This document shows, piece after piece, positions 1 to 19,536 of a stretch of DNA of 64,000 nt. Within the stretch, counting starts at the first letter, position 1. Every line of letters starts with the position of its first letter. The DNA is from Candidatus Jettenia sp. Its GTDB lineage: Bacteria > Planctomycetota > Brocadiia > Brocadiales > Brocadiaceae. The translations under genes were made by a program, and so were the position numbers. The stretch spans positions 773,659 to 837,658 of the forward strand of contig CP091278.1 in the NCBI GenBank assembly GCA_021650895.1. The letters run 5' to 3'. Under the pieces are notes generated by a model. It saw only the letters and a program-made list of their open reading frames with translations, had not been told where the DNA came from and did not search any database.

Positions 1-2210
1 AAGAACTTTTTCATACGGTAAAAAACGTATCGGTATTTGCAAGGGTATCACCTCAACATAAGTTAAGAATAACGAATCAATTATTAAAACATGGTGAGGT
101 AGTCGCAATGACAGGAGACGGAGTTAATGATGCACCTGCCCTCAAGGCTGCTCATATTGGTATTGCCATGGGCAGGACAGGAACTGATGTTGCGAAAGAG
201 GCCTCCGATGCTGTCCTTACCGATGATAATTTTGCAAGCATTTTTGCAGCGGTTGAAGAGGGAAGGGTAGTGTATGATAATATCAAGAAGGTCACCCTCT
301 TTCTGATATCATGCGGTTTTGGAGAACTGATTGCCATTATCACCACCGTTGCAATGGGTTTCCCTATACCCTATATAGCGGTACAGATACTCTGGTTGAA
401 CCTCGTAACAAACGGGCTTCAAGATATCGCTCTTGCCTTTGAACCAGGAGAAAAAGGAGTCTTACAGAAACCACCAAGGCATCCGAAAGAACGTATTCTT
501 ACCAGTATTATGATTCAAAGGACTGTTCTCATGGGACTTGTTATAGCAGCAGGAACGGTCACTCTCTACCTATACCATCTCAATAAAGGAGCATCATTAG
601 AACAGGCTCGTACCGTAGCCCTTACAACCATGGTCATTTTCCAATCCTACCAGGCATTTAACTGCCGTTCTGAATCACAATCCATTTTCAGGAAGAATCC
701 TCTGAGTAACCCATTTTTATTCTTCAGCATGATTGCTGCCCTCTTTGCCCATCTTTCAGTGTTGTATGTACCGGCTCTTCAATGGGTTTTTAGAACAGTT
801 CCTCTTACCAGGGAAGAATGGATCGATATCGGAGTGATAACCGTAGCAATTGTTATTGCCGTTGAGATCGATAAATTGATAAGAAGAAAAAGGAAAACAA
901 GAGCAACGATTACAGGATTTAAAACGGGAAAAATACTTGCATCAGTCAAAATACTTTTGATATCTGTTTGTATTTTCCTTGGATTATGGACTGCCTATAC
1001 ATTCTTCAGGCCCAAAAGAGAAGATGAAGTTGTTTTTAGTATTGGGTGTGGCGCCGAAGAAATCGGAATAATAAGGAGACTCATAGATACATTTGAAAAG
1101 GAAAATCCTGCGATACATGTTAAATTAAACATCCTTCCTGCGCCTACGGATCAGCAGCACCATTACTATCTTACTACCTTTGGGGTAAAGTCTGAAGATA
1201 TTGATGTGATGAGAATTGATACTATCTGGATTGCAGAATTTGCGTCAGCAAGATGGCTAGAGCCATTAGAAACATATATCAATCCTGGATATAAAGCATC
1301 ATTTATTCCCATAATTGATGCGATAAACATATACCAGGATCGTTTATACGCCATTCCCTGGAATGCCGATATTGGACTTTTCTATTATCGAAACGATTTA
1401 TTAAAAAAATACCAGGCATCTCCGCCGCAAACGTGGGAAGAGCTTATTGAAACAGGCACAAAAATTTCCTCCATGGAACCTGTATATGGATACCTCTGGC
1501 AAGGAAAACAGTATGAAGGATTGGTCTGTAATTTTATTGAATTCATTGGCAGCAACAATGGAGAAATACTTGATGCACAGGGAAGAGTAGTTGTTAATTC
1601 GATACAAAATCACACAGCTCTCAATCTCATGCATGATTTACTATGGAAGTATCAGATATCACCGCCAAATACCTACAGCGAACTTATGGAAGAGCCCACT
1701 CGTCATCTATTTCAACAGGGTAGAGGTCTTTTTTTAAGAAATTGGACTTATGTATGGAATCTTTTTCAGGCAGACCAGTTTATGAGGAATAAAGTAGGAG
1801 TATCTCACTTGCCTAAATTCTCCGGTGGACGCCCAGCTCCTGTATACGGAGGATGGCATCTCGCTATAAATGCTAACTCAAAAAGGAAGAAGCAGGCATG
1901 GCAACTCGTTAAATTCTTAAGCTCACACAGGGTGCAAAGAGAACTATCCAAGAGACTATCCTGGGCGCCGACACGTACCTCACTATATAAAGACCCGAGA
2001 CTGCTCCGAAGATTGCCATTTCTTTCAATCGTGCATGCATCCTTTCCAAACGTTCAAATACGGCCCAACCTTCCTTATTATCAGTGGGTGAGCGACATCA
2101 TACAAAAACACGTTAACAGGGTATTATCGAATCAGGAGAGCAGCAAACAAGCGTTACAATCTATTCAAACAGAACTCGAACGGGTGAGAAATGAATTTAC
2201 CAAAGACTAA
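1..2210 (+). CDS. P-type cation ATPase C-terminal half fused to an ABC sugar-binding protein (5' partial)
   Basis: The reading frame is open from base 3, so the gene starts before the window. The first ~300 visible residues are the end of a P-type ATPase: [10 protein letters not shown], then the hinge motif TGDGVNDAP, then six membrane helices including NLVTNGLQD in M6. The ATPase normally ends near the basic stretch RRKRK. Here the frame continues without a stop or an ATG into another hydrophobic helix (about 940-1015) and then a family 1 extracellular solute-binding protein to base 2210. The topology fits a real fusion: the ATPase C-terminus is cytoplasmic, the extra helix would cross outward, and the binding domain would sit in the periplasm. 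The 3' end overlaps the permease start by 20 bases. The ATPase resembles P2-type cation pumps, but its ion is unknown. A lost stop through a consensus error is the alternative. Confidence 0.85.
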
Positions 2211-8371: not shown

Positions 8372-9742
8372 TTAATCCTTCTTACTTAATGATGTTGATG
8401 TAATTGATTTAATCAGTTCTATACCGTAGCTGATCGGAACACCAAAACTCGATCCTCGAAATCCTGGAAAAATTCCGTAACTAATCCCAATAACCTTCCC
8501 TTTATTATTAAAGATAGGCCCTCCACTACCACCTGCAGTTGTTTGCGCATCATAAACAATCCTGTTTCTCATGATATCACTTAAATGACCCTGTGTTGAA
8601 AGTGGCCGTATCAAACCCCAATTTGAGAGTTCCTGTACCAGGGGAATAAACGGCAAGTTAAAAAGCTGCTTAACAGTTTCAGGATCTGCCTTTGCAAAAA
8701 TAGCATTAACTCCTGCCGGATATCCCAGTAATACAATAGGCTCACCGACCACTGCGCCACTCCCCGTAGTATCTAATTCTAAAATAGGCATACGAGAACC
8801 ACGAAGATCTATACGAAGGAGTGCAACATCTACCTCTTCAGAAATCTTTTCAATTTTTAAAGAAAAAGGCTCTTTAATACCAGGGAAAAATGCCCTGAAT
8901 TCTTCAAGTTTAGGTTTAATCGTAGGCCCCATATGGATGTAAGGAGACACTTCCATCCCCCACCACGGTTCAGCAATATGGCGGTTTGTTAGAATCAGAC
9001 CATCTGCACTGACTAAAAATCCGCTGCCTGTATATTCATTAATACCCCGTGGCCCTCTCCCCATCATCATAAGTGTCTCACCCGTCTCTTCATCAAAAAA
9101 ATAAAAAGTTCCCTGGATAAAGCAAACGCTATTACTGTATTTTTTGATGATATTTTCAGCAACCGATTTTTCAATCTCAAAGAGCCGCACCTTTTCTGCT
9201 GTCTTTGAGAGTCTTACATATTGCAAGGAAAAAAACGTTATTACGATGCCAGAGACGAGAAAGAGAATAATGAAAGCACTTACCTTGAAAAGCCGAGAGG
9301 ATTGAGTAAACGCCTCCCTTAAAAGCTGCCTAAAAAATACAGTTGCAGTAGTAAGTCTTCCCTTGGGAGATGTGCGAGCTATACCTAAAGAATCCTCCAG
9401 CATCTCCATCCATGGTTTACATACATCAGCATCATCTGGCTTAATACGGAATCGAATCCTGGGGCCGCCAGAACCAAACTCTATCAAATCACCATCTTTC
9501 AACACAATTTCACTAACCAGCCTATTGTTTACTAAGGTGCCTTTTGAACTCCCTTTATCATGTAACACATAATCACAACCTTTTAATTGTATCTCAGCAT
9601 GATGGTCTGATGTATTCTTATCCATTTCTGAATTAAAACAAAGATCATTTGAAGTGTCTGTGCCAATAGATATCTTTCCAGAAACAAAAACTTCTGTATT
9701 TCCACGGCGGCTACCTGACAAATGAACGAAAATGGCTTTCAA
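8372..9742 (-). CDS. FHA domain - transmembrane - trypsin-like serine protease
   Basis: A 456-residue protein with three parts. Residues 1-105 form an FHA phosphothreonine-binding domain (SIGTDTSNDL, DHHAEI, KGTLVNN). One helix follows at about 153-175 (FIILFLVSGIVITFFSL). Residues 215-445 form an S1C/HtrA-like protease with TNRHIAEP (His), EVDVALLRID (Asp) and TAGGSGGPIF (Ser). There is no PDZ domain. With a cytoplasmic FHA domain and one helix, the protease would face the periplasm, so the protein could pass a phosphorylation signal to envelope proteolysis. The two genes behind it encode exported proteins and follow almost without gaps; these may be partners or substrates. Confidence 0.85.
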   Translation of the reverse strand: MKAIFVHLSGSRRGNTEVFVSGKISIGTDTSNDLCFNSEMDKNTSDHHAEIQLKGCDYVLHDKGSSKGTLVNNRLVSEIVLKDGDLIEFGSGGPRIRFRIKPDDADVCKPWMEMLEDSLGIARTSPKGRLTTATVFFRQLLREAFTQSSRLFKVSAFIILFLVSGIVITFFSLQYVRLSKTAEKVRLFEIEKSVAENIIKKYSNSVCFIQGTFYFFDEETGETLMMMGRGPRGINEYTGSGFLVSADGLILTNRHIAEPWWGMEVSPYIHMGPTIKPKLEEFRAFFPGIKEPFSLKIEKISEEVDVALLRIDLRGSRMPILELDTTGSGAVVGEPIVLLGYPAGVNAIFAKADPETVKQLFNLPFIPLVQELSNWGLIRPLSTQGHLSDIMRNRIVYDAQTTAGGSGGPIFNNKGKVIGISYGIFPGFRGSSFGVPISYGIELIKSITSTSLSKKD

Positions 9743-10500: not shown

Positions 10501-11240
10501 CTACTTTTTTGAATATCTTTCATCGTTCTCCCTTTCAAATGAGAGTTGCCTCAGGATACGATTTTGTTCCATAACCTCGTTAACCATTCCAAGTTTATCA
10601 TAAATCACAGAAAGAACACTATGTGCCTTTTCCGATTTAGGGTTTAACTGAACGGCTTTTTTAAGCTCTGCTATAGAATCATCAAACATATTCTTTTTAA
10701 AATAGCAAACACCCATGAAATAATGTCCGTCCTCCAGGTTTGGATTAATCTCCAGAGCCTTTTTACATGCAATAAAAGCCTCTTCATTCTTTTCGATTAA
10801 ACTATACGTAATAGCCAGGTACAAATATCCCTCCGCCTCTTTTTTGTCCTTTTTTGCCGCAAACAGATCTATTGCTTTTGGTATTCAGAAATTGCATCCT
10901 CAAATTTCTTATTGGCTACATAAGCAAAAGCAATATTATAATGTGCCTTTGGCTCATCAGGATTTGCGTCAATTGCCTTTTTTAGTTCCGCTATCGATTC
11001 ATTTACCATACCTTTTGTATAATAAGCAATTCCTAAATCGAAACGGGCATTATAATGGTTGGGGTTCACTTCCAATGCTTTCTTAAATTCTGCAATTGAC
11101 TCATCATATTTCCTCTGATTATAGAGGGCAAGCCCTTTCCTGTCATGGTAACTTGCTTTATCCCCGCAACCTGTTACCAGGAAACATATCAGAAGTAATC
11201 CAGCGATTATCTTCACAAGAATTATATTCTGTTTTACCAT
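10501..11240 (-). CDS. TPR-repeat lipoprotein, broken by a one-base frameshift
   Basis: Two adjoining frames read as one protein of about 245 residues. The first (from 11240) has a lipoprotein signal ending in VTGCG and three TPR units (for example YDESIAEFKKALEVNPNHYN). It hits a stop near 10869. The second frame continues at once with AIDLFAAKKDKKEAEGYLYL and two further TPR units. Restoring one A in the run at 10876-10879 (T on the plus strand) joins them as EYQKAIDLF. TPR lipoproteins act as scaffolds in the envelope. The gene follows the GGDEF regulator by 21 bases and may belong to that signalling operon. Sequencing error or real mutation cannot be told apart here. Confidence 0.8.
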
Positions 11241-11261: not shown

Positions 11262-12224
11262 CTATTCAACTTCGACAATTACATCTTCTTTAAAATAACA
11301 TACCCTGTTTTTACCTAATCTTTTTGCATAATACATAGCGTCATCAGCTTTTCTAATTAAATTATCTTTTGATAATGCATCTTTTGGATATGCCACCATA
11401 CCTATACTCATGGTAATCCCTTTGTTAGAGAGAATATCCGTATACATCCATTTTTTAGATTGTACTTCTTTCATGATTCGATTCGCCACACCTAAACCGG
11501 CATTTATAGTCGTTTCAGGTAAAACAACCGTAAATTCCTCACCACCATACCGGGCTACAAAATCTGTCTTTCGTGTTGTATTTAAAAATATTGAGGCTAA
11601 CTCACGAAGTATCTCATCTCCGGCTAGATGGCCATTCAAATCATTGTAGACCTTAAAATCATCAACATCGGCAAATAAGAGAGAGAATGTACTTGAATTT
11701 CTTTTTGCCCTTTGTAGTTCACGCTCTATAAATTCATGAAAATATCTGTAATTATAAACCTTGGTTAAACTATCAGTAATGGAAAGATGCCTATAAAATT
11801 CCAGCATCCGGGATTCCCGTAACAGCCACTGTCTTTCTACAGCTTTCTCTACAATGATTTTCATCTCTTCCAGTTCAAAGGGTTTACAAATATAGTCATA
11901 CGCACCTAATTTCATTGCATTAACTGCTGATTCTACCGTACCATAGGCAGTCATAATTAATACACACACATCAGGGTTCATCTTGAGTACATACTGTAAT
12001 AATTCTATGCCACTTATGCCGGGCATTCTAAGATCAGTAATTACGATTTCAAAAGGCTCATTTTCAATTTGCTTAACCGCATCCCTTCCGTTTATTGCAA
12101 CCTTTACTTTATATCCCGTTTGGGAGAGCGTATCATAAAGTAAATCACGAATTATCTCTTCATCGTCAACAATGAGTATCCGTATAGGTTCCTTCGCCTC
12201 TATTAATTTGTTCATTACTCTCAT
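11262..12224 (-). CDS. response regulator with diguanylate cyclase output (REC-GGDEF)
   Basis: A 320-residue PleD-like protein. Residues 14-130 form a receiver domain: IRILIVDDEE (acidic pocket), VITDLRMPG (phosphoacceptor Asp), MTAYG and CKPFE (Lys). Residues about 150-315 form a GGDEF domain with FADVDDFKVYND and an intact active site RYGGEEF. RKTD five residues before GGEEF is the RxxD inhibitory site for c-di-GMP feedback. The enzyme should make c-di-GMP when phosphorylated. The start overlaps the end of the histidine kinase gene by about 59 bases; a second ATG at 12215 is an alternative start. The kinase next door is its probable partner. Confidence 0.93.
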   Translation of the reverse strand: MRVMNKLIEAKEPIRILIVDDEEIIRDLLYDTLSQTGYKVKVAINGRDAVKQIENEPFEIVITDLRMPGISGIELLQYVLKMNPDVCVLIMTAYGTVESAVNAMKLGAYDYICKPFELEEMKIIVEKAVERQWLLRESRMLEFYRHLSITDSLTKVYNYRYFHEFIERELQRAKRNSSTFSLLFADVDDFKVYNDLNGHLAGDEILRELASIFLNTTRKTDFVARYGGEEFTVVLPETTINAGLGVANRIMKEVQSKKWMYTDILSNKGITMSIGMVAYPKDALSKDNLIRKADDAMYYAKRLGKNRVCYFKEDVIVEVE

Positions 12225-14115
12225 TATCCTTCTGTATCGGCACTGGCAATATGACAGTAAAAATAGTCCCTTTTCCCATTTGACTACTCACCATAATATT
12301 TCCATTATGCCTTTTTATAATATCATAGCATATTGATAATCCAAGTCCAGTCCCTTTCCAATCCATCTTTGTTGTAAAAAAAGGTTCAAATATTCGCTCT
12401 ATATGTTCCTCAGCAATTCCACAACCCGTATCTTTAAATTCAGCCTCTACAACTCTGCCCTTAGTTCTTCTCGTCGAAATAAACAAATGTCCTCCTTTAG
12501 GCATTGCCTGCTGGGCATTCAGTATTACGTTAATAAATACCTGTTGTAGCTGATTAGCATTTCCATCGATCAGATCTACGTCATTCACTAAATTATTCAC
12601 CACTTCGATCTTATTCGCTAACAACTGGCCTTTTATGAGAGATAACGTATCTGCTATAATATTGTTTATATTCAAAGGTTCAAAAATTTCATTTGATTTT
12701 CTTGCGAATTGAAGCAAATTTTGCACTATATCCATGCAACGATGTGTGCTATTTTCTATGTGTTGTAAACACTTCCTAAAGGTAGAAATATCCTCCATCT
12801 TTACATTTTCCTTTGATACTTTCTCTAGCATATATTGTGTATAGCCCAGGATACCTGTCATGGGATTATTCAACTCATGAGCAACACCGGCCCCCAACTG
12901 ACCAATAGCTGCCAGTTTACCAGACTGAATCAACTGAAATTGCTTTTCTTTCAATTCTTTCGTCCTCTGCTCTACTTTTTTCTCCAAATTAACGTTTAAT
13001 TCGTTAATTTGGTTAAATGCATCGCGCAATGCCTCTGTTTTTCTCTGTATTTCAGCCCTTGCTTTGCCTAACCGCATTATCATGTCGTTGAAAGATATCC
13101 CTAACAAGCCAATTTCATCTCTATTCTTTATATTTGTTTTGTAGTTTAAATCACCATCAGATACTCTCGCCATCCCGTGAATCAAGGTGTGTATGGGTTT
13201 TACTACACCTTTTGAAACTATAATACTCATGAGTATTACCAAGAAAAAGCTACTGCTTAAAACATATACAACATTTTTTTTCAACCTCAATATATTGGAT
13301 AACGCATCCCTTCTCTCTTGTGCAACAATAACCCGCCAGTTAGGAAACTCATACTCTGAGTTACCCACGTATCTCTCTGAACTGTAAATAAACGTTTTAA
13401 AATCAGGTTCTATCGCATTAACAACCCCGGATTGTTTATCCGGATCAAAAGGTGCATGCTGAAATAACTTTTCCTTTCTGGGATGGGCAATGAAGTACTG
13501 TAAGTTATTAACAATTGCGATAATCCCGGTATTCCCTATGGTTATATTATCTACAATCTCCCATATACGTTCCATATTAAGCTGTCCAACAATGGCTGCC
13601 TGTATCTTCCCCTTATCATCCACGAGCGGAACAGCAATGGCAACGACAACCTCATAAGGATCAAGGATGATATGTGCATCAGAAATATACACCTTACCGT
13701 TTATCGCCTCCTGAAACCATTTTTTCGATTTCCATTCACCCTGATAATTGTATGCTGTAGATGTTATTACACGACCTTTTATATCGATCATAGTAATATC
13801 TTCAAAACACTTGTAATATTCCTGAATTCTTTTCATTTCAGATAATTTCTTATCGACAGATATATGTGTACTTCTCATACTTTCGCTCTCTGCCAGCATT
13901 TTCATGTCTGTCACGCAGCTCTCCATAAAGCGATGTATCTCTTCTTTTGTATTTTTAGCTAGCATGCCAAGATTGTTAAGGACCTCATCTTTTATAAAAC
14001 TCTCAGTACTTTTAAACAGAAAAAATAAACCAATAAACAACGGCAAAAGCCCCACGAAAGAAATAAACAAGGCCATTTTAAACCCTAACCGTCTAAATAC
14101 ACTTATTTTTCTCAT
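12166..14115 (-). CDS. membrane sensor histidine kinase (Cache-HAMP-HisKA-HATPase)
   Basis: A 649-residue kinase. Helix 1 is at about residues 13-33 and helix 2 at about 285-305, enclosing a periplasmic double-Cache type sensor of some 250 residues. A HAMP linker follows (VVKPIHTLIHGMARVSDGDL), then a coiled coil, then the H-box VAHELNNPMTGILGY with the phosphoacceptor histidine, then the ATPase domain with FINVILNAQQAM, DTGCGIAEEHIERIFEPFF and GTGLGLSI. The HELNNP box is the NtrB-like class. It starts three bases after a PotD-like binding protein gene and overlaps a REC-GGDEF gene. The unit therefore looks like binding protein to kinase to c-di-GMP synthase. Confidence 0.93.
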   Translation of the reverse strand: MRKISVFRRLGFKMALFISFVGLLPLFIGLFFLFKSTESFIKDEVLNNLGMLAKNTKEEIHRFMESCVTDMKMLAESESMRSTHISVDKKLSEMKRIQEYYKCFEDITMIDIKGRVITSTAYNYQGEWKSKKWFQEAINGKVYISDAHIILDPYEVVVAIAVPLVDDKGKIQAAIVGQLNMERIWEIVDNITIGNTGIIAIVNNLQYFIAHPRKEKLFQHAPFDPDKQSGVVNAIEPDFKTFIYSSERYVGNSEYEFPNWRVIVAQERRDALSNILRLKKNVVYVLSSSFFLVILMSIIVSKGVVKPIHTLIHGMARVSDGDLNYKTNIKNRDEIGLLGISFNDMIMRLGKARAEIQRKTEALRDAFNQINELNVNLEKKVEQRTKELKEKQFQLIQSGKLAAIGQLGAGVAHELNNPMTGILGYTQYMLEKVSKENVKMEDISTFRKCLQHIENSTHRCMDIVQNLLQFARKSNEIFEPLNINNIIADTLSLIKGQLLANKIEVVNNLVNDVDLIDGNANQLQQVFINVILNAQQAMPKGGHLFISTRRTKGRVVEAEFKDTGCGIAEEHIERIFEPFFTTKMDWKGTGLGLSICYDIIKRHNGNIMVSSQMGKGTIFTVILPVPIQKDNESNEQINRGEGTYTDTHC

Positions 14116-14118
14116 CGC

Positions 14119-15162
14119 CTAATCTGAAACGAGTTCTGCCCAACATTCATTGAACTTTTTCTGAACATTAGAATTCAAAATTTCATATACTTCCAACGTA
14201 TCGATTGTTTTTTCATTTATATAAATATAAGGATTTTTTAACAATTCCTTATTAACAAACACTCGTGCCTTTTTATTACAATTTGCATAATAAGAATAAT
14301 TAGTATGCTTTCCACTAATTTCCGGACGAAGCATAAAATTAATAAACTTTTCTGCAAGTCGTTTATGTTTTGCGCCAATAGTAACCGCTATGTTATCCGT
14401 CCAAAAGCCTGTACCTTCTTTCGGTAATATAAACTTTATGGCATTATTTCTTTCATTAACGAATGCAGCATCTCCATTGTAACACTGAGCAATCCATAAT
14501 ACTTCGCTTATTAACCCTTCATCAATCTTATTATAAGAAATAAACCCCTCTTTCAGAAGGAGAGGTTTTAATGCTTTCAATATCTTTAATGATTCGTCTG
14601 CATCCTTAGGGTTCGTAGGTTTTAATGAATAACCCAACCTTTTTAGTCCGACAGTCATTACATCGTACATGTTATTTGAAAGCGCCATCCTGCCCCTATA
14701 TCTTTTGTCCCAAAAAATACCCCAACTATCAACATGACCTTTTACGTATTTTGTATTATATGCAATACCAGTAACACCCCAATCAATAGGAACGCTATAT
14801 CTTCTCCACTTTCTATTTGAAATAGTCCTGAATCTTGCTTTAAGATTTTTCTTATTGGGTATCTGATGCATATCAAGTTTTGATAGCAATTTAGATTTTA
14901 TCATCACATCCGTTAAGGAATCACTCGGAAAGATAACATCGTATCGTTCTGGCTGCGATTGAACCAAAGAAAACATTGCCTCTTCATCATCGTAAAAATC
15001 AACATGTACTTTCACCTGAAATTCTTTCTCAAAATCGGAAAAGATCTCCGGATCGATATAGTCGACCCATGTATATACATTAAGCTCTGTATCAGAGCCA
15101 CCTGCATGAGGAACGATAAACCCGAACCATATGATGAAAACAACAGAAAAAAGTATTTTCAT
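14119..15162 (-). CDS. periplasmic polyamine-type binding protein (PotD/PotF-like), likely sensor partner
   Basis: A class II periplasmic binding protein of the spermidine/putrescine family (about 347 residues): signal peptide MKILFSVVFIIWFGFIVPHA, then ELNVYTWVDYIDPEIFSDFE, RYDVIFPSD, VPIDWGVTGIAYNT and the C-terminal ECWAEL. I chose ATG at 15162; a TTG at 15180 would add six residues before the signal. No permease or ATPase gene lies nearby. The histidine kinase gene begins three bases downstream. This suggests a receptor that loads ligand onto the kinase's Cache domain rather than a transporter subunit. The agmatinase two genes upstream makes a polyamine ligand plausible. Confidence 0.87.
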   Translation of the reverse strand: MKILFSVVFIIWFGFIVPHAGGSDTELNVYTWVDYIDPEIFSDFEKEFQVKVHVDFYDDEEAMFSLVQSQPERYDVIFPSDSLTDVMIKSKLLSKLDMHQIPNKKNLKARFRTISNRKWRRYSVPIDWGVTGIAYNTKYVKGHVDSWGIFWDKRYRGRMALSNNMYDVMTVGLKRLGYSLKPTNPKDADESLKILKALKPLLLKEGFISYNKIDEGLISEVLWIAQCYNGDAAFVNERNNAIKFILPKEGTGFWTDNIAVTIGAKHKRLAEKFINFMLRPEISGKHTNYSYYANCNKKARVFVNKELLKNPYIYINEKTIDTLEVYEILNSNVQKKFNECWAELVSD

Positions 15163-15261
15163 TGCATTTTTAATATCCAAAACGCATAAAGATGTTCAAG
15201 GAATAATTTTGCTTAAATTTACTTCCCTTCAATAACTCTATGATGAAACAATCTCTCTATT

Positions 15262-16761
15262 TCAAAATATAATTTCCGTTACTAATTCAATTTGATAAGC
15301 AGGGTCTGCATCTCCATCAAAACGAGGCGCAGGCGCTAAACCCAAAATATCTCCATCATTCCTCTTTTCATGATAATATCTACCGGGAAAGAAAATACCT
15401 GTCTGAAGACTAAAAGAAATATGATCCGTTAAATCATAGCTGCTATAAAAATCCAGTTCATGCCCTAAATCTGAGCTTAAGGTAATAGCACGATTGTTGA
15501 GAATGCCTATGGCATGTTCAAAACTTCTCAGGTACCAATAATCAAGAGATAATAACCATGTATCCGTTATTTGTATATCTATTCCTATATTCGGTAGAAT
15601 AAGATTATTCAACTGATACGGGTCACCAAAAGTGCCTGGCCGAACAATACCATAATTCAAGCCATAACTTCCTCCTGTTGCTACAAACGGACCATAAGCT
15701 GCCGGATAAATAGTATCCGAAAGGTTTATATTTGTAGGAGAATAAACAGAGAAGACATTATTACTATGGGAATTGAAACGGCCTTGTACTACATCATCGG
15801 CATCCATCTTATTACCGGAACTCACAAGCAGTTTTGACCTGGGAGTAAATTTTTCAAAATTATAAGAAATATCGGCATAGGCCATATATCCTTTATGGAT
15901 TATATCATCTTGATCATCTAAGACATTTGCACTACCAAAATTTTTTGCAACTTCAAATCCAACATGGAGTGTATCAAAATATATTTCTGTATCAATGCCA
16001 ATAGTAAACAAATTATCCTCATTTACAGGAACAGGAATCGTGCTAACCCTGCGATTGCTTGGTGTTGTATCGTGCAACAATCCAATATAAGGTTGAAGTA
16101 AACCATTATCGCGTTTCATAAGAACATCAAAACTCACAAAATGGGCATTAGAATCGTATTCTACATCTAGGGACCTTTCTTGAGGCACTTGAGGCCCCAG
16201 GATAATTTTATTTACTACATCGGGTTTTACGTAAGAGAAAGTCCATTTGAAATCTTCGCTCATACTGTAGGCACTAAAACCACAATTCTCATAGTATCCT
16301 CCAAGTGCATAACCATTCCCCACGTGATAGGCATATTGCCCTAATTTAAGCCTCGCAGGTAAATGAAAAATTAAAGAGTCTATCCAATACTCTTCAACCC
16401 GTGGAATTATTTCAGGAACACTATAATTATCAACTTCTCCAAAGAGGGTATTGATTTTTTTGTCTGATATAATTGGGGCATCATAATCAAAAGGGCCGCT
16501 ACTCTCAAATCTTATAAAAGATATCAGGAAATCTTTATAAGTAATATTAAATTCCGTATCATACGTGTATCCTACATACGTAACGCCATCACTCTTTTTG
16601 CTATCTAAGTCCAGGTTATTTCCTATAGAATTACCTGAAAATCGCAGGTGGTTTTTTATAGAAAGTTTTAGATTTGGGGATATGTTACAGAACGTTTCAG
16701 AGAAAGTAAAGGGGGGAAACACAAATATCATGACAAGGATACAGGGAATCTTTTTTATCAT
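15262..16761 (-). CDS. outer-membrane beta-barrel protein (alginate-export/porin-like)
   Basis: A 499-residue exported protein with signal MIKKIPCILVMIFVFPPFTFS and alternating amphipathic strands to a C-terminal phenylalanine (VTEIIF). Aromatic C-termini of this kind are the barrel-assembly signature of outer-membrane proteins. Strand pairs such as PARLKLGQYAYHVGNGYALG and WLLSLDYWYLRSFEHAIG recall the alginate-export (AlgE-like) superfamily. The substrate is unknown. It follows the agmatinase gene by 11 bases and precedes the PotD-like gene by about 100, so passage of small amines or organics is one possibility. Its presence supports a true outer membrane in this organism. Confidence 0.75.
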   Translation of the reverse strand: MIKKIPCILVMIFVFPPFTFSETFCNISPNLKLSIKNHLRFSGNSIGNNLDLDSKKSDGVTYVGYTYDTEFNITYKDFLISFIRFESSGPFDYDAPIISDKKINTLFGEVDNYSVPEIIPRVEEYWIDSLIFHLPARLKLGQYAYHVGNGYALGGYYENCGFSAYSMSEDFKWTFSYVKPDVVNKIILGPQVPQERSLDVEYDSNAHFVSFDVLMKRDNGLLQPYIGLLHDTTPSNRRVSTIPVPVNEDNLFTIGIDTEIYFDTLHVGFEVAKNFGSANVLDDQDDIIHKGYMAYADISYNFEKFTPRSKLLVSSGNKMDADDVVQGRFNSHSNNVFSVYSPTNINLSDTIYPAAYGPFVATGGSYGLNYGIVRPGTFGDPYQLNNLILPNIGIDIQITDTWLLSLDYWYLRSFEHAIGILNNRAITLSSDLGHELDFYSSYDLTDHISFSLQTGIFFPGRYYHEKRNDGDILGLAPAPRFDGDADPAYQIELVTEIIF

Positions 16762-16772
16762 AACTACTAGAG

Positions 16773-17714
16773 TTAAGATAAAAGGGTATATTTATTATAA
16801 AATCCTATATTTTTATACACAAGATTGGCAGCTAAAAAATTTGGCGCTTCATTTCCCGGATTGGGTTTCAACTCAACCACATCGAATCCAACCACTTTTC
16901 GATTCGTATATACTTTGCGTAAAAAATCCAGTGTCCGATACCACCCCAAACCACCAGGAACAGGAGTCCCTGTAGCAGGCATAATCGATATATCGAAGCC
17001 ATCCACATCCAAAGTAATATATACATAATCTTCTAATGTTTCTATGGCTTCCTCATGCCAGTCATCATTATTATAAATATCTCTTGCATAAAACACAGAT
17101 ACGGCATTTTTACTCTTTTCTACAAATTCCTGTTCTTCCTTCGATACTACCCTTACGCCAAAACTGGTCACTTTACATCTCAGGTCTTCAGCCACCCTTC
17201 TTGATACACTCGCGTGGCTGTAGGGAGTACCGCCAAACTGTTCCATTAAATCAAGATGCGCATCGAGTTGAAGCACAGATAATTTCTTGTATTTTTCTTT
17301 ATATGCTTTTATTACACCTTGTGAAATCGAATGCTCACCACCTAACGTTGCCAAAAACTTATTGTCTTTTACAATTCCTTTACTGACATGATAAACTGCC
17401 TCGATTACCTTTTTTGCATCAGTATGAATTTCCTCTAAATTAAGTATTCCCACAGTAAAAATACCTGCAGAATAGATATCACCTAATTCGTCATCATACG
17501 GCTCTACATTAATAGACGCATTAAGTATTGCATAAGGACCTACTTTGGTTCCTGTTTGATAGGTAGCTGTACCATCAAAAGGTACTCCCATAATAATAAC
17601 CTTAGAATGTTTGTAAGCATCACTGTCACTTTTAAAATCGTAAGGAAACGCTCCAAACTGTAGTGAACTTAGCACATATTGTCTGATATTACGCAGCATA
17701 GGATTCTCCAGCAT
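16773..17714 (-). CDS. speB: agmatinase / ureohydrolase
   Basis: A 313-residue arginase-family enzyme. Manganese-binding motifs are GGEHSIS (with Glu where most members have Asp), QLDAHLDLME, and TLDVDGFDISIMPATGTPVPGG, which matches the agmatinase form of the final motif. The likely reaction is agmatine to putrescine plus urea; arginase or formimidoylglutamase activity cannot be excluded. It is the first gene of a short group with the outer-membrane barrel gene 11 bases downstream, and a PotD-like sensor follows. The terminator of the respiratory operon lies just upstream. Confidence 0.85.
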   Translation of the reverse strand: MLENPMLRNIRQYVLSSLQFGAFPYDFKSDSDAYKHSKVIIMGVPFDGTATYQTGTKVGPYAILNASINVEPYDDELGDIYSAGIFTVGILNLEEIHTDAKKVIEAVYHVSKGIVKDNKFLATLGGEHSISQGVIKAYKEKYKKLSVLQLDAHLDLMEQFGGTPYSHASVSRRVAEDLRCKVTSFGVRVVSKEEQEFVEKSKNAVSVFYARDIYNNDDWHEEAIETLEDYVYITLDVDGFDISIMPATGTPVPGGLGWYRTLDFLRKVYTNRKVVGFDVVELKPNPGNEAPNFLAANLVYKNIGFYNKYTLLS

Positions 17715-17734
17715 AAATAAAATAGCTATAAAAC

Positions 17735-17767
17735 AAAAAAGGCATCTTCAACAAAGATGCCTTTTTT
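17735..17767 (-). terminator. intrinsic terminator of the respiratory operon
   Basis: The stem AAGGCATCTT pairs with AAGATGCCTT around a four-to-five base loop. It is flanked by six A on the left and six T on the right, so it can act in both directions. On the minus strand it follows the octaheme gene (ending 17792) and separates the respiratory operon from agmatinase. Confidence 0.9.
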
Positions 17768-17791
17768 GCCTCTATTATAAAAAGACTACTC

Positions 17792-19536
17792 TTATTCGTG
17801 ATTAGTCTCACGTCTCTTTTTCCACAATGCAGCGCCAAACATTAATACCGCAACGATTCCGATAATGCTTCCTATAATACCAGCAAATTTTTTCCTGTCC
17901 TTAGCTTTCAGGATCTCATGGAACTCTTTATCATGTTTAAGTGCAGCGGCCTGGCTTTCCAGTATATTAATCTTCTGATATACCTTGGCAGCGCCATACC
18001 ACCATGAAATATCCTGCTGACCATGAGCTACACCTTTATAGGCATGAGCTTTATCCCCAAACCACATATCAGCATAGGTAATTTCAATTTCTGAAGGATT
18101 ATTCCTTCCCGTTGCAAACAAACCATGCAAGCCAAGGATAGGTCCAATGACAGGTACTTTTCCAGCTTTTGTTTTGAAGGCTTTATACACTGACTCTCCC
18201 AATAATCCAGGTCCAAGCGCATCGGCAAGTATATCTCCAAGCGGAAAGATGTCTCTCTCTTTAATAGGTACCTCGAAAGCGTCTAACTCAACAATTTCGT
18301 CTAAGATAAGCTGGGCTCTATCCTGTAACTTCCACATTTCAAACATAAAATCGTTTAAATTTTCACGATATAACCTGGCAAATCTTGGGCTGTGACATTT
18401 GCTACACACTGCTACCCATTGCTCTGATCTTTGTTTATTTTCAGGAGAATAAATATCAAGACTATAATTCAGAGGGGGAAGATTGATACCATGCGGGTAA
18501 TCTTTTAACGATGATTTGTAATCTACCCCTTTTGGTGGAACTGTTCCCATTCTCCACACGCCTTTTGTAACCGGGTTGTGGGCGAACTTGCCATTTCCTT
18601 GATCAAAATGGCAAAACTGGCATGTTGGCGTTCTGTAATCTTTACCAGGCACAATTTCTGCCAACGGTTTTTCCCAATCCCAGTGCTCTCCCTCCAGATG
18701 ATAAATATATCCCATCTTTGATTCACCATAGGTTTCTGCATCTGGATGGTCAAAACCCATATGACAACTCATACAGGCCTCCGGTCTTCTGCCTCTGCTG
18801 CTGCAAACTTATGTCTTGTATGACAAATGTTGCATCGGTCGGTTGCATGGCAAAGATCACATCCAAATTGAGCTGTTGGATATCCCCTCCGGAACATCTC
18901 GGGATACCAAGGCGGAATAACGTTTGCTGCCAGTCCCTCAATATGATTTGGACGTCCGCGGTCAGCCTCGCTCATAAATTCAGTTGTTTCCTTAGGATGA
19001 CATTCTCCACACTTAGCTGGTGTAGGCATAACAAGCTCTTTGTGATCCTGACCATGGCAATCTTTACAGAGCACTTGTTTTAGTTCTCTGCCAATTAACT
19101 TCTCTATTTGTTGTGTTTTTTCTGCAATCCTAGGATTTTTCCGTAAATTTGCATGTGTAGACTCTTCCCAGTCGTGTACAAAACCAGGTGTTACCTCTTT
19201 ATGACATTCTATACAATCAGAGGGTTTATATTTTTCCAACAATTGATCATAATATGTCCCATCAGGCTTTACATAATGCCTTACAGGAAACCAATACATT
19301 TGTAATGGCACAGGCTTATAGATATTTTGCCAGGGACCTGCACCCTTCTCCAGCCCAACATTATTAACAAACCAATCTTTTAATGTATCAGTTGGATACA
19401 AAGCATCATAGTAGCTCATAGCCTTTTTTTGCATTTCTTTTAACTCAGTTTCTGACTGTGCTTGTAGGCTTCCAGTCAGTGAACCCCACATTAAAGGGGC
19501 GGCAAGTAAAACCGCTCCCAACCTCATTAAATTCAT
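17792..19536 (-). CDS. membrane-anchored octaheme HAO-family protein, split by a one-base frameshift
   Basis: Two frames give one protein of about 580 residues. The first (from 19536) has a signal peptide and haem motifs CIECH, CKDCH, CGECH, CDLCH and CNICH. It ends in the wrong frame after KFAAAEAEDRRPV at about 18769. The second supplies RPEACMSCH, CQFCH and CSKCH, bringing the total to eight. The cysteine of CMSCH lies just before the second frame's ATG, so the break runs through a haem site. One base missing near 18784-18789 explains it. The C-terminus has a helix (FAGIIGSIIGIVAVLMFGAAL) and a basic tail. In NeHAO the catalytic cross-link tyrosine lies after the last haem; here that stretch reads ISWWYG, which suggests it is absent and that the protein transfers electrons or reduces rather than oxidises hydroxylamine. 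It is the last gene of the Rieske/cytochrome b operon. Confidence 0.92.

Follow-up and report, generated by a model that had tools for sequence, protein, structure and literature searches.

Does a PotD-like solute-binding protein (SBP) whose gene lies beside a sensor kinase and a cyclase, with no transporter, serve uptake or signaling? The question is raised by a locus of Candidatus Jettenia sp., an anammox bacterium, in a stretch of 64,000 nucleotides (the window, contig positions 773659-837658) that belongs to a 3.82-Mb genome in one contig. Three minus-strand genes are concerned. The SBP gene (14119..15162) encodes 347 aa from its ATG; a TTG at 15180 likewise lies in the open frame and would give 353 aa. 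Three bases separate it from a gene for a 649-aa histidine kinase of dCache_1-HAMP-HisKA-HATPase_c type (12166..14115; H-box His413, G2 box at residue 588). The frame of the kinase overlaps by 59 bases that of a 320-aa REC-GGDEF response regulator (11262..12224), or by 50 bases if the cyclase starts at Met4, a start favored by the alignment of a related cyclase (L035). A GGEEF motif is found at residue 227 of the cyclase, with an RKTD (RxxD) I-site pattern before it. A sequence-only reading had proposed a unit of these three genes with no transporter subunits and a cyclase that keeps its active and inhibitory sites, and on these points it agreed with our domain matches, spacings and motifs; no transporter gene was found inside the run.

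We consider it fairly probable, judging from sequence comparisons, that the locus encodes an SBP-gated two-component relay to cyclic di-GMP (c-di-GMP), and that its ligand would be a small cationic amine, likeliest of the agmatine/putrescine class. In this scheme, the amine would enter the periplasm, possibly via a co-encoded barrel, and be clamped by the PotD-like SBP. The loaded SBP would dock on the dCache domain of the kinase and thereby switch the kinase; the domain's own site for small molecules looks disabled. Phosphate would then move to REC and switch the GGDEF domain on, with the I-site giving feedback on the cyclase. The ligand, the docking, the sign of the signal, the phosphotransfer and any downstream behavior (aggregation, matrix) are what we infer.

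Whether a cognate permease is encoded elsewhere, the finding that would have spoken for uptake in the sequence-only reading, was checked genome-wide. The PF00528 profile detected 12 permease domains. From their surroundings they were assigned to molybdate, sulfonate-family, glycine-betaine-like (SBP fused), polar amino acid (SBP fused) and two aminophosphonate/iron-like systems, and the remaining ones, by open reading frame (ORF) reading alone, to sugar and phosphate systems; the NCBIfam cut-off was passed only by the molybdate SBP, the sulfonate SBP and the amino-acid permease domain. No Pot-type permease was recognized among the 12, and the best genome match of a PotB-like query taken from a related-family protein (L043) was the molybdate permease, at 28% identity. 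No cognate PotABC was found adjacent to the SBP gene in the 16 family loci that were read. Among 80 PotD-like loci retained from a larger collection scan, a PotB/C-like gene lay within 6 kb in 71 of the 74 loci of <=40% identity, compared with 0/6 anammox loci.

Binding protein and candidate ligand

The SBP matched SBP_bac_8 with 88 bits (cut-off 27), and its closest solved structures were of the PotD/PotF/SpuD type. It missed the curated equivalog cut-offs for PotD (159 vs 582 bits) and PotF (117 vs 636 bits). Its N-terminus resembles a signal peptide by eye, and its predicted model was moderate (pLDDT 76.5, pTM 0.68; the other four models 36-56). The pocket of PotF is described as a proximal group (S38, D39, D247), an aromatic group (W37, W244, F276) and a distal group (S85, S87, A182, E185, D278, L348) (PMC8666671), and that of PotD as E36, D168, E171 and D257 with W34, Y37, W229 and W255 (PMC11414716). 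The pocket residues of the window SBP are W32, D34, Y35, S80, S82, N164, D167, Y228, D231, W254, D256 and Y292, of which D34, S82 and D231 follow PotF and W254 follows PotD. Counts were taken over 14 full-length anammox SBP copies in PotD numbering. Positions 36, 171, 232 and 257 were acidic in 14/14, with Asp at 232 throughout, and positions 34, 37, 229, 255 and 293 were aromatic in 14/14 (W34, Tyr at 229, W255). Five contacts described as general to PotD homologs in the polyamine sensor NspS (W41, Y233, D236, W261 and D263; PMC9993111) seem to correspond to W32, Y228, D231, W254 and D256, as matched from the published list rather than from an NspS alignment. Such a pocket appears to suit a short diamine or agmatine. 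Family-specific changes were also present: position 211 was Tyr in 14/14, R170 was replaced by Tyr, Phe or Asn in 14/14, and Ser stood at 85 in 10/14. With the Tyr at 211 and the loss of R170, the exact ligand cannot be read from the pocket.

These changes would also fit the same relay with a non-polyamine ligand, such as γ-aminobutyrate (GABA), 5-aminovalerate or another cationic amine or amino-acid derivative. Two P. aeruginosa kinases have SBP_bac_8 proteins encoded next to them whose preferred ligands are reported to be GABA or 5-aminovalerate; PA0602 did not bind putrescine or spermidine and PA4985 bound spermidine weakly, at 160 uM (PMC11113362). However, the four invariably acidic positions (D168 not among them) should disfavor a zwitterion, and the run begins with an agmatinase gene. 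We regard a ligand of this kind as possible, and less likely than a polyamine-type one.

Further residues were compared as well. Of 85 transporter-linked relatives, 85 keep PotD D120, 83 keep Y129 and 84 keep R170; all three residues are replaced in 14/14 anammox SBPs. The docking residues Y56 and D212, each kept in 71/72 transporter-linked relatives, were kept in 0/14 and 2/14 anammox copies. Only two docking columns were conserved enough to count; 0/2 were kept, versus 3/4 pocket columns and 32/45 other columns. Loss of the permease-docking surface was considered as a signature of these SBPs and dropped, because planctomycete transporter-linked controls mostly lack the same residues.

Kinase sensor and its pairing with the binding protein

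Over residues 41-270, the predicted kinase sensor had a pLDDT of about 78 (68 for the whole model, pTM 0.41), and it resembled the domains of PctA, CtaA and Mlp24 with Z of about 20. Sequence alignments were weak (chemoreceptor domain 5ave/3c8c, E 2e-5; PctA, E 0.01). Both alignments placed Gln178 at the Asp common to the amino-acid and amine motifs; on this weak alignment, the Asp was replaced in 9/9 kinases, by Gln in 8 and by Lys in 1. The position that we take to be the Arg of the amino-acid motif was Lys in 9/9. That the kinase senses the ligand directly through dCache, with the SBP acting separately, would agree with the finding that dCache domains often bind amines and amino acids themselves (PMC10104139, which also describes the two motifs). 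However, amine-motif mutations or single mismatches left no or strongly lowered affinity in the same source (PMC10104139), and with the motif Asp exchanged in every kinase we regard direct sensing as unlikely. The domain looks like a former small-molecule binder that would now depend on the SBP. The matches listed for a fold search with the kinase were taken up by kinase cores; LuxQ was not among the matches listed for the kinase or for its sensor, which excludes nothing.

The SBP was found in 14 of 59 genomes, the window genome included, 12 of which belong to the family's 33. No match above 37% identity was found outside the family in a phylum sample of 392 genomes, and copies inside the family were 61-100% identical among the matches listed. 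The kinase sensor at >50% identity occurred in 9/33 family genomes, each of them one of the 12 that carry the SBP (hypergeometric 6e-6, uncorrected for kinship), and the next-best sensor match dropped from 245 to 45.9 bits. The kinase was present in 10 of the 16 family SBP loci. The complete order agmatinase-barrel-SBP-kinase-cyclase was shared by the window locus and L029, and agmatinase-SBP-kinase-cyclase was seen in L041 and SBP-kinase-cyclase in L035, L036 and L037. L040 held the SBP and a kinase cut by a contig end, and L048 the order kinase-barrel-SBP with its SBP cut by a contig end. Barrel-SBP-hybrid kinase was the order in L038 and L039. Agmatinase, barrel and SBP without a kinase made up L030-L034 and L042, where the L034 agmatinase is a fragment at a contig end (L053) and the L042 barrel and SBP are broken. 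In the SBP tree, every main group contained kinase-linked SBPs, and with the basal fork of the family left open no claim is made on the ancestral gene order.

The exchange of the kinase core gave the strongest evidence that the SBP and the sensor would work together. Compared with the window kinase, the hybrid kinases of L038 and L039 were 55-56% identical in dCache and 71 and 68% in HAMP, but only 25% in the core. A Pfam scan of L038 showed two REC domains in the hybrid kinase, then Hpt and an HDOD-GGDEF gene; L039 looked alike by alignment, BLAST match and eye. Since the pair was retained while the core was exchanged, a functional link between SBP and sensor is suggested, and GGDEF genes adjoin both kinds of kinase. 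We tentatively raise the possibility that this anammox family has a modular amine receptor, in which a PotD-family protein and a dCache domain relieved of direct binding were plugged into varied phosphorelays that all end in c-di-GMP. Together with the agmatinase and a dedicated barrel, it could let the cells gauge density or decay from agmatine or putrescine leaked by neighbors or by themselves, and so govern aggregation.

The absence of the block was informative as well. In the congener G001 (L149), the agmatinase gene is followed by barrel residues 1-75, a kinase scrap near the G2 box and the last cyclase codons, and downstream of these scraps lie complete TPR lipoprotein and phosphoribosyltransferase genes. 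G008 (L151) belongs to another genus; there, the TPR match comes within about 80 bases after barrel residues 1-73. Neither the SBP nor a close sensor was found elsewhere in G001 or G008; barrel fragments also occur in L150, L152 and L153. Because scraps remain, loss is the likely direction, and barrel, SBP, kinase and cyclase likely disappeared jointly at least twice. Their joint absence where TPR and agmatinase genes stay favors a functional block and disfavors the TPR lipoprotein as its output; the agmatinase, which also stays, may or may not belong to the module.

Several points weigh against the proposed relay. In the pocket, PotD D168 is Asn in 10/14 anammox SBPs, the window copy included. 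Transporter-linked planctomycete SBPs also keep Y56 in only 2/14 and D212 in only 2/14. Seven of 20 PotD homologs from other planctomycetes (32-34% identity) had neither PotB/C nor a similar kinase nearby, 3 of these 7 lying within 1 kb of a contig end; such lone homologs mean that an SBP without a neighboring transporter is not proof of signaling. Six of the 16 family SBP loci lack an adjoining kinase; a kinase locus was present elsewhere in 3 of these genomes (G018, G021, G023), and the other 3 genomes are 58-86% complete. Distances of SBP and sensor (8 pairs) tracked each other poorly, with r 0.79, or 0.52 without the congener pair, and those of SBP and kinase core gave r 0.53. In P. aeruginosa, the neighboring SBP and kinase genes were reported not to be linked, with no SBP-kinase contact seen (PMC11113362).

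The kinase-less loci and the lone planctomycete homologs would suit an SBP that scavenges nutrients for a non-ABC or distant carrier, with the kinase adjacent by accident, and a scavenged amine could feed the agmatinase. However, no Pot-type permease was recognized in the genome, the sensor turned up solely in genomes with the SBP, and the pair has outlasted a change of kinase core, so that scavenging appears improbable to us.

Two further arrangements were noted at related loci. Near barrel-SBP loci that lack a kinase, the opposite strand encodes kinase-REC-GGDEF hybrids (L034:4566-7409, with PAS domains; L031:1-1932, cut by a contig end). In other planctomycetes, L181:4758-6870 and L185:1572-3751 hold tandem PotD-like genes with no PotB/C found nearby.

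Relation to known sensing systems

LuxP-LuxQ and TorT-TorS are SBP-gated sensor kinases. By gene content, the window unit appears to fit this class, since in both the gene of a periplasmic SBP neighbors that of a membrane kinase whose sensor is periplasmic; it differs from both named pairs in its PotD-type SBP, its dCache sensor and a response regulator that is itself a cyclase. The class is described in PMC11113362.

NspS-MbaA of Vibrio cholerae and Sinorhizobium meliloti is alike in its PotD-like sensing SBP, in a gene that abuts or overlaps the receptor gene and in its c-di-GMP output (PMC9993111), and the window SBP gene likewise abuts its receptor gene without transporter genes. In contrast, MbaA is described there as one polypeptide with HAMP, an SGDEF-type cyclase and EAL/EVL and no RxxD, whereas the window unit has a histidine kinase and a separate REC-GGDEF protein with GGEEF, RxxD and no EAL. 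Contacts named as NspS-specific are D70, D90 and F131. Because its receptor is a kinase and not a GGDEF-EAL protein, the unit is not a member of the NspS-MbaA group. Salmonella STM1987 with ArtI shares a dCache_1 sensor, a separate required SBP and c-di-GMP output; there the dCache_1 protein itself is described as sensing L-arginine together with ArtI, with no kinase involved (PMC8846402). The window SBP has the fold of the PotD/PotF receptors, along with most acids and the aromatics of their pocket, and it differs in the lack of a recognized PotABC and in the replaced D120, Y129 and R170. The cyclase, with REC, GG[DE]EF and RxxD all present, fits the PleD/WspR-like type.

Anammox bacteria are cultivated in granular and biofilm form. 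None of the literature matches listed concerned a histidine kinase and a cyclase together with a PotD-like SBP in these bacteria, or an external signal into their c-di-GMP network. The relay proposed here would offer that network a concrete input, an amine-type ligand, and a circuit; through it, the cell would probably sense small amines and adjust its lifestyle. It would also extend PotD-family signaling from proteobacterial one-piece GGDEF-EAL receptors to a planctomycete two-component relay. The naturally swapped kinase cores provide an internal test of SBP-sensor recognition.

Neighboring genes and further observations

Two genes that the sequence-only reading had left out precede the SBP in the same run and direction. 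The agmatinase gene (16773..17714, minus strand; TIGR01230, 225 bits vs cut-off 174) comes first, after an unstranded hairpin of 15 pairs (17734..17768) between it and cytochrome genes. Terminator-like sites across the region were overall close to chance (7 observed vs 5.1 expected). After a gap of 11 bases follows a 499-aa outer-membrane barrel-like protein (15262..16761, minus strand), separated from the SBP by 99 bases. In the congener L029 the gene order is identical and the five proteins are 95-98% identical to those of the window; with this recurrence and the co-occurrence of the parts across the family, the arrangement is more than chance. The genome also encodes a pyruvoyl arginine decarboxylase, which together with the agmatinase gives the cell a route to agmatine and putrescine. 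A single PilZ domain was detected in the genome.

The barrel fell just under the Pfam cut-off for Alginate_exp, weak matches to which (E <= 0.01) were seen in 10/10 homologs scanned; its profile had no match among solved structures. A near-full-length barrel occurred in 10/33 family genomes, all 10 with the SBP (hypergeometric 7e-7, uncorrected for kinship), and relatives at 39-40% identity were found without the SBP in two genomes of another family, G040 and G045.

Downstream, 21 bases after the cyclase, the run adjoins a TPR lipoprotein gene, a single protein of about 240 aa in relatives. Here its frame is broken into two ORFs, the N-terminal half (10869..11240, minus strand), broken at its end, and 10501-10824, because an A-run has one A fewer than in two congeners. 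The sequence-only reading had seen this lipoprotein as a possible output. It stays in two lineages that lack the other genes, none was seen next to either hybrid-kinase version, and it is probably just a neighbor outside the sensor module. That part of the reading was not borne out; its core, sensing of a ligand converted to c-di-GMP, gained partial support from the SBP without transporter, the amine-type pocket, the conserved SBP-sensor pairing and the intact-looking cyclase. The barrel and the TPR lipoprotein could also be an exopolysaccharide-export pair, presumably akin to AlgE/AlgK, as direct output of the cyclase. The Alginate_exp matches would agree with this, as would the G040 barrel relative (40%), next to which a large, by eye TPR-like protein is encoded. 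On the other hand, the TPR gene stays where the barrel is a scrap (L149, L151) and no polysaccharide synthase was seen among the genes of the run, making such a pair very unlikely.

A second single-base deficit relative to both congeners, at window 18769-18772, splits a multihaem cytochrome of about 580 aa in relatives; this one and that at 10824-10869 are real mutations or sequencing slips. Upstream of the run lie multihaem cytochromes with weak hydrazine dehydrogenase matches (48 and 62 bits, far under the cut-off) and, by ORF reading, cytochrome b subunits and a Rieske-like protein.

Between the TPR and phosphoribosyltransferase genes of L035:2302-4245, L036:2839-4797 and L037:1846-3807 lies a fusion of glutaredoxin, ferredoxin-thioredoxin-reductase beta and DUF3422 (domains scanned in L035 only, the other two alike by N-terminus), which was not seen at the corresponding place in the window. 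Several family loci carry, downstream of the unit, an FHA domain joined to a trypsin-like protease (window 8372-9742), of which only the last 63 residues were matched in L149. At window 1-2210, on the plus strand (L158:4401 onward), one open frame of 1323 aa combines what reads as a P-type cation ATPase with a sugar-type SBP, flanked by ABC-transporter genes and, by reading, a trehalose-phosphate synthase. G001, G002 (two copies) and G012 share this fused frame at 64-96% identity, and its ATPase and SBP parts match separate frames in many other family genomes.

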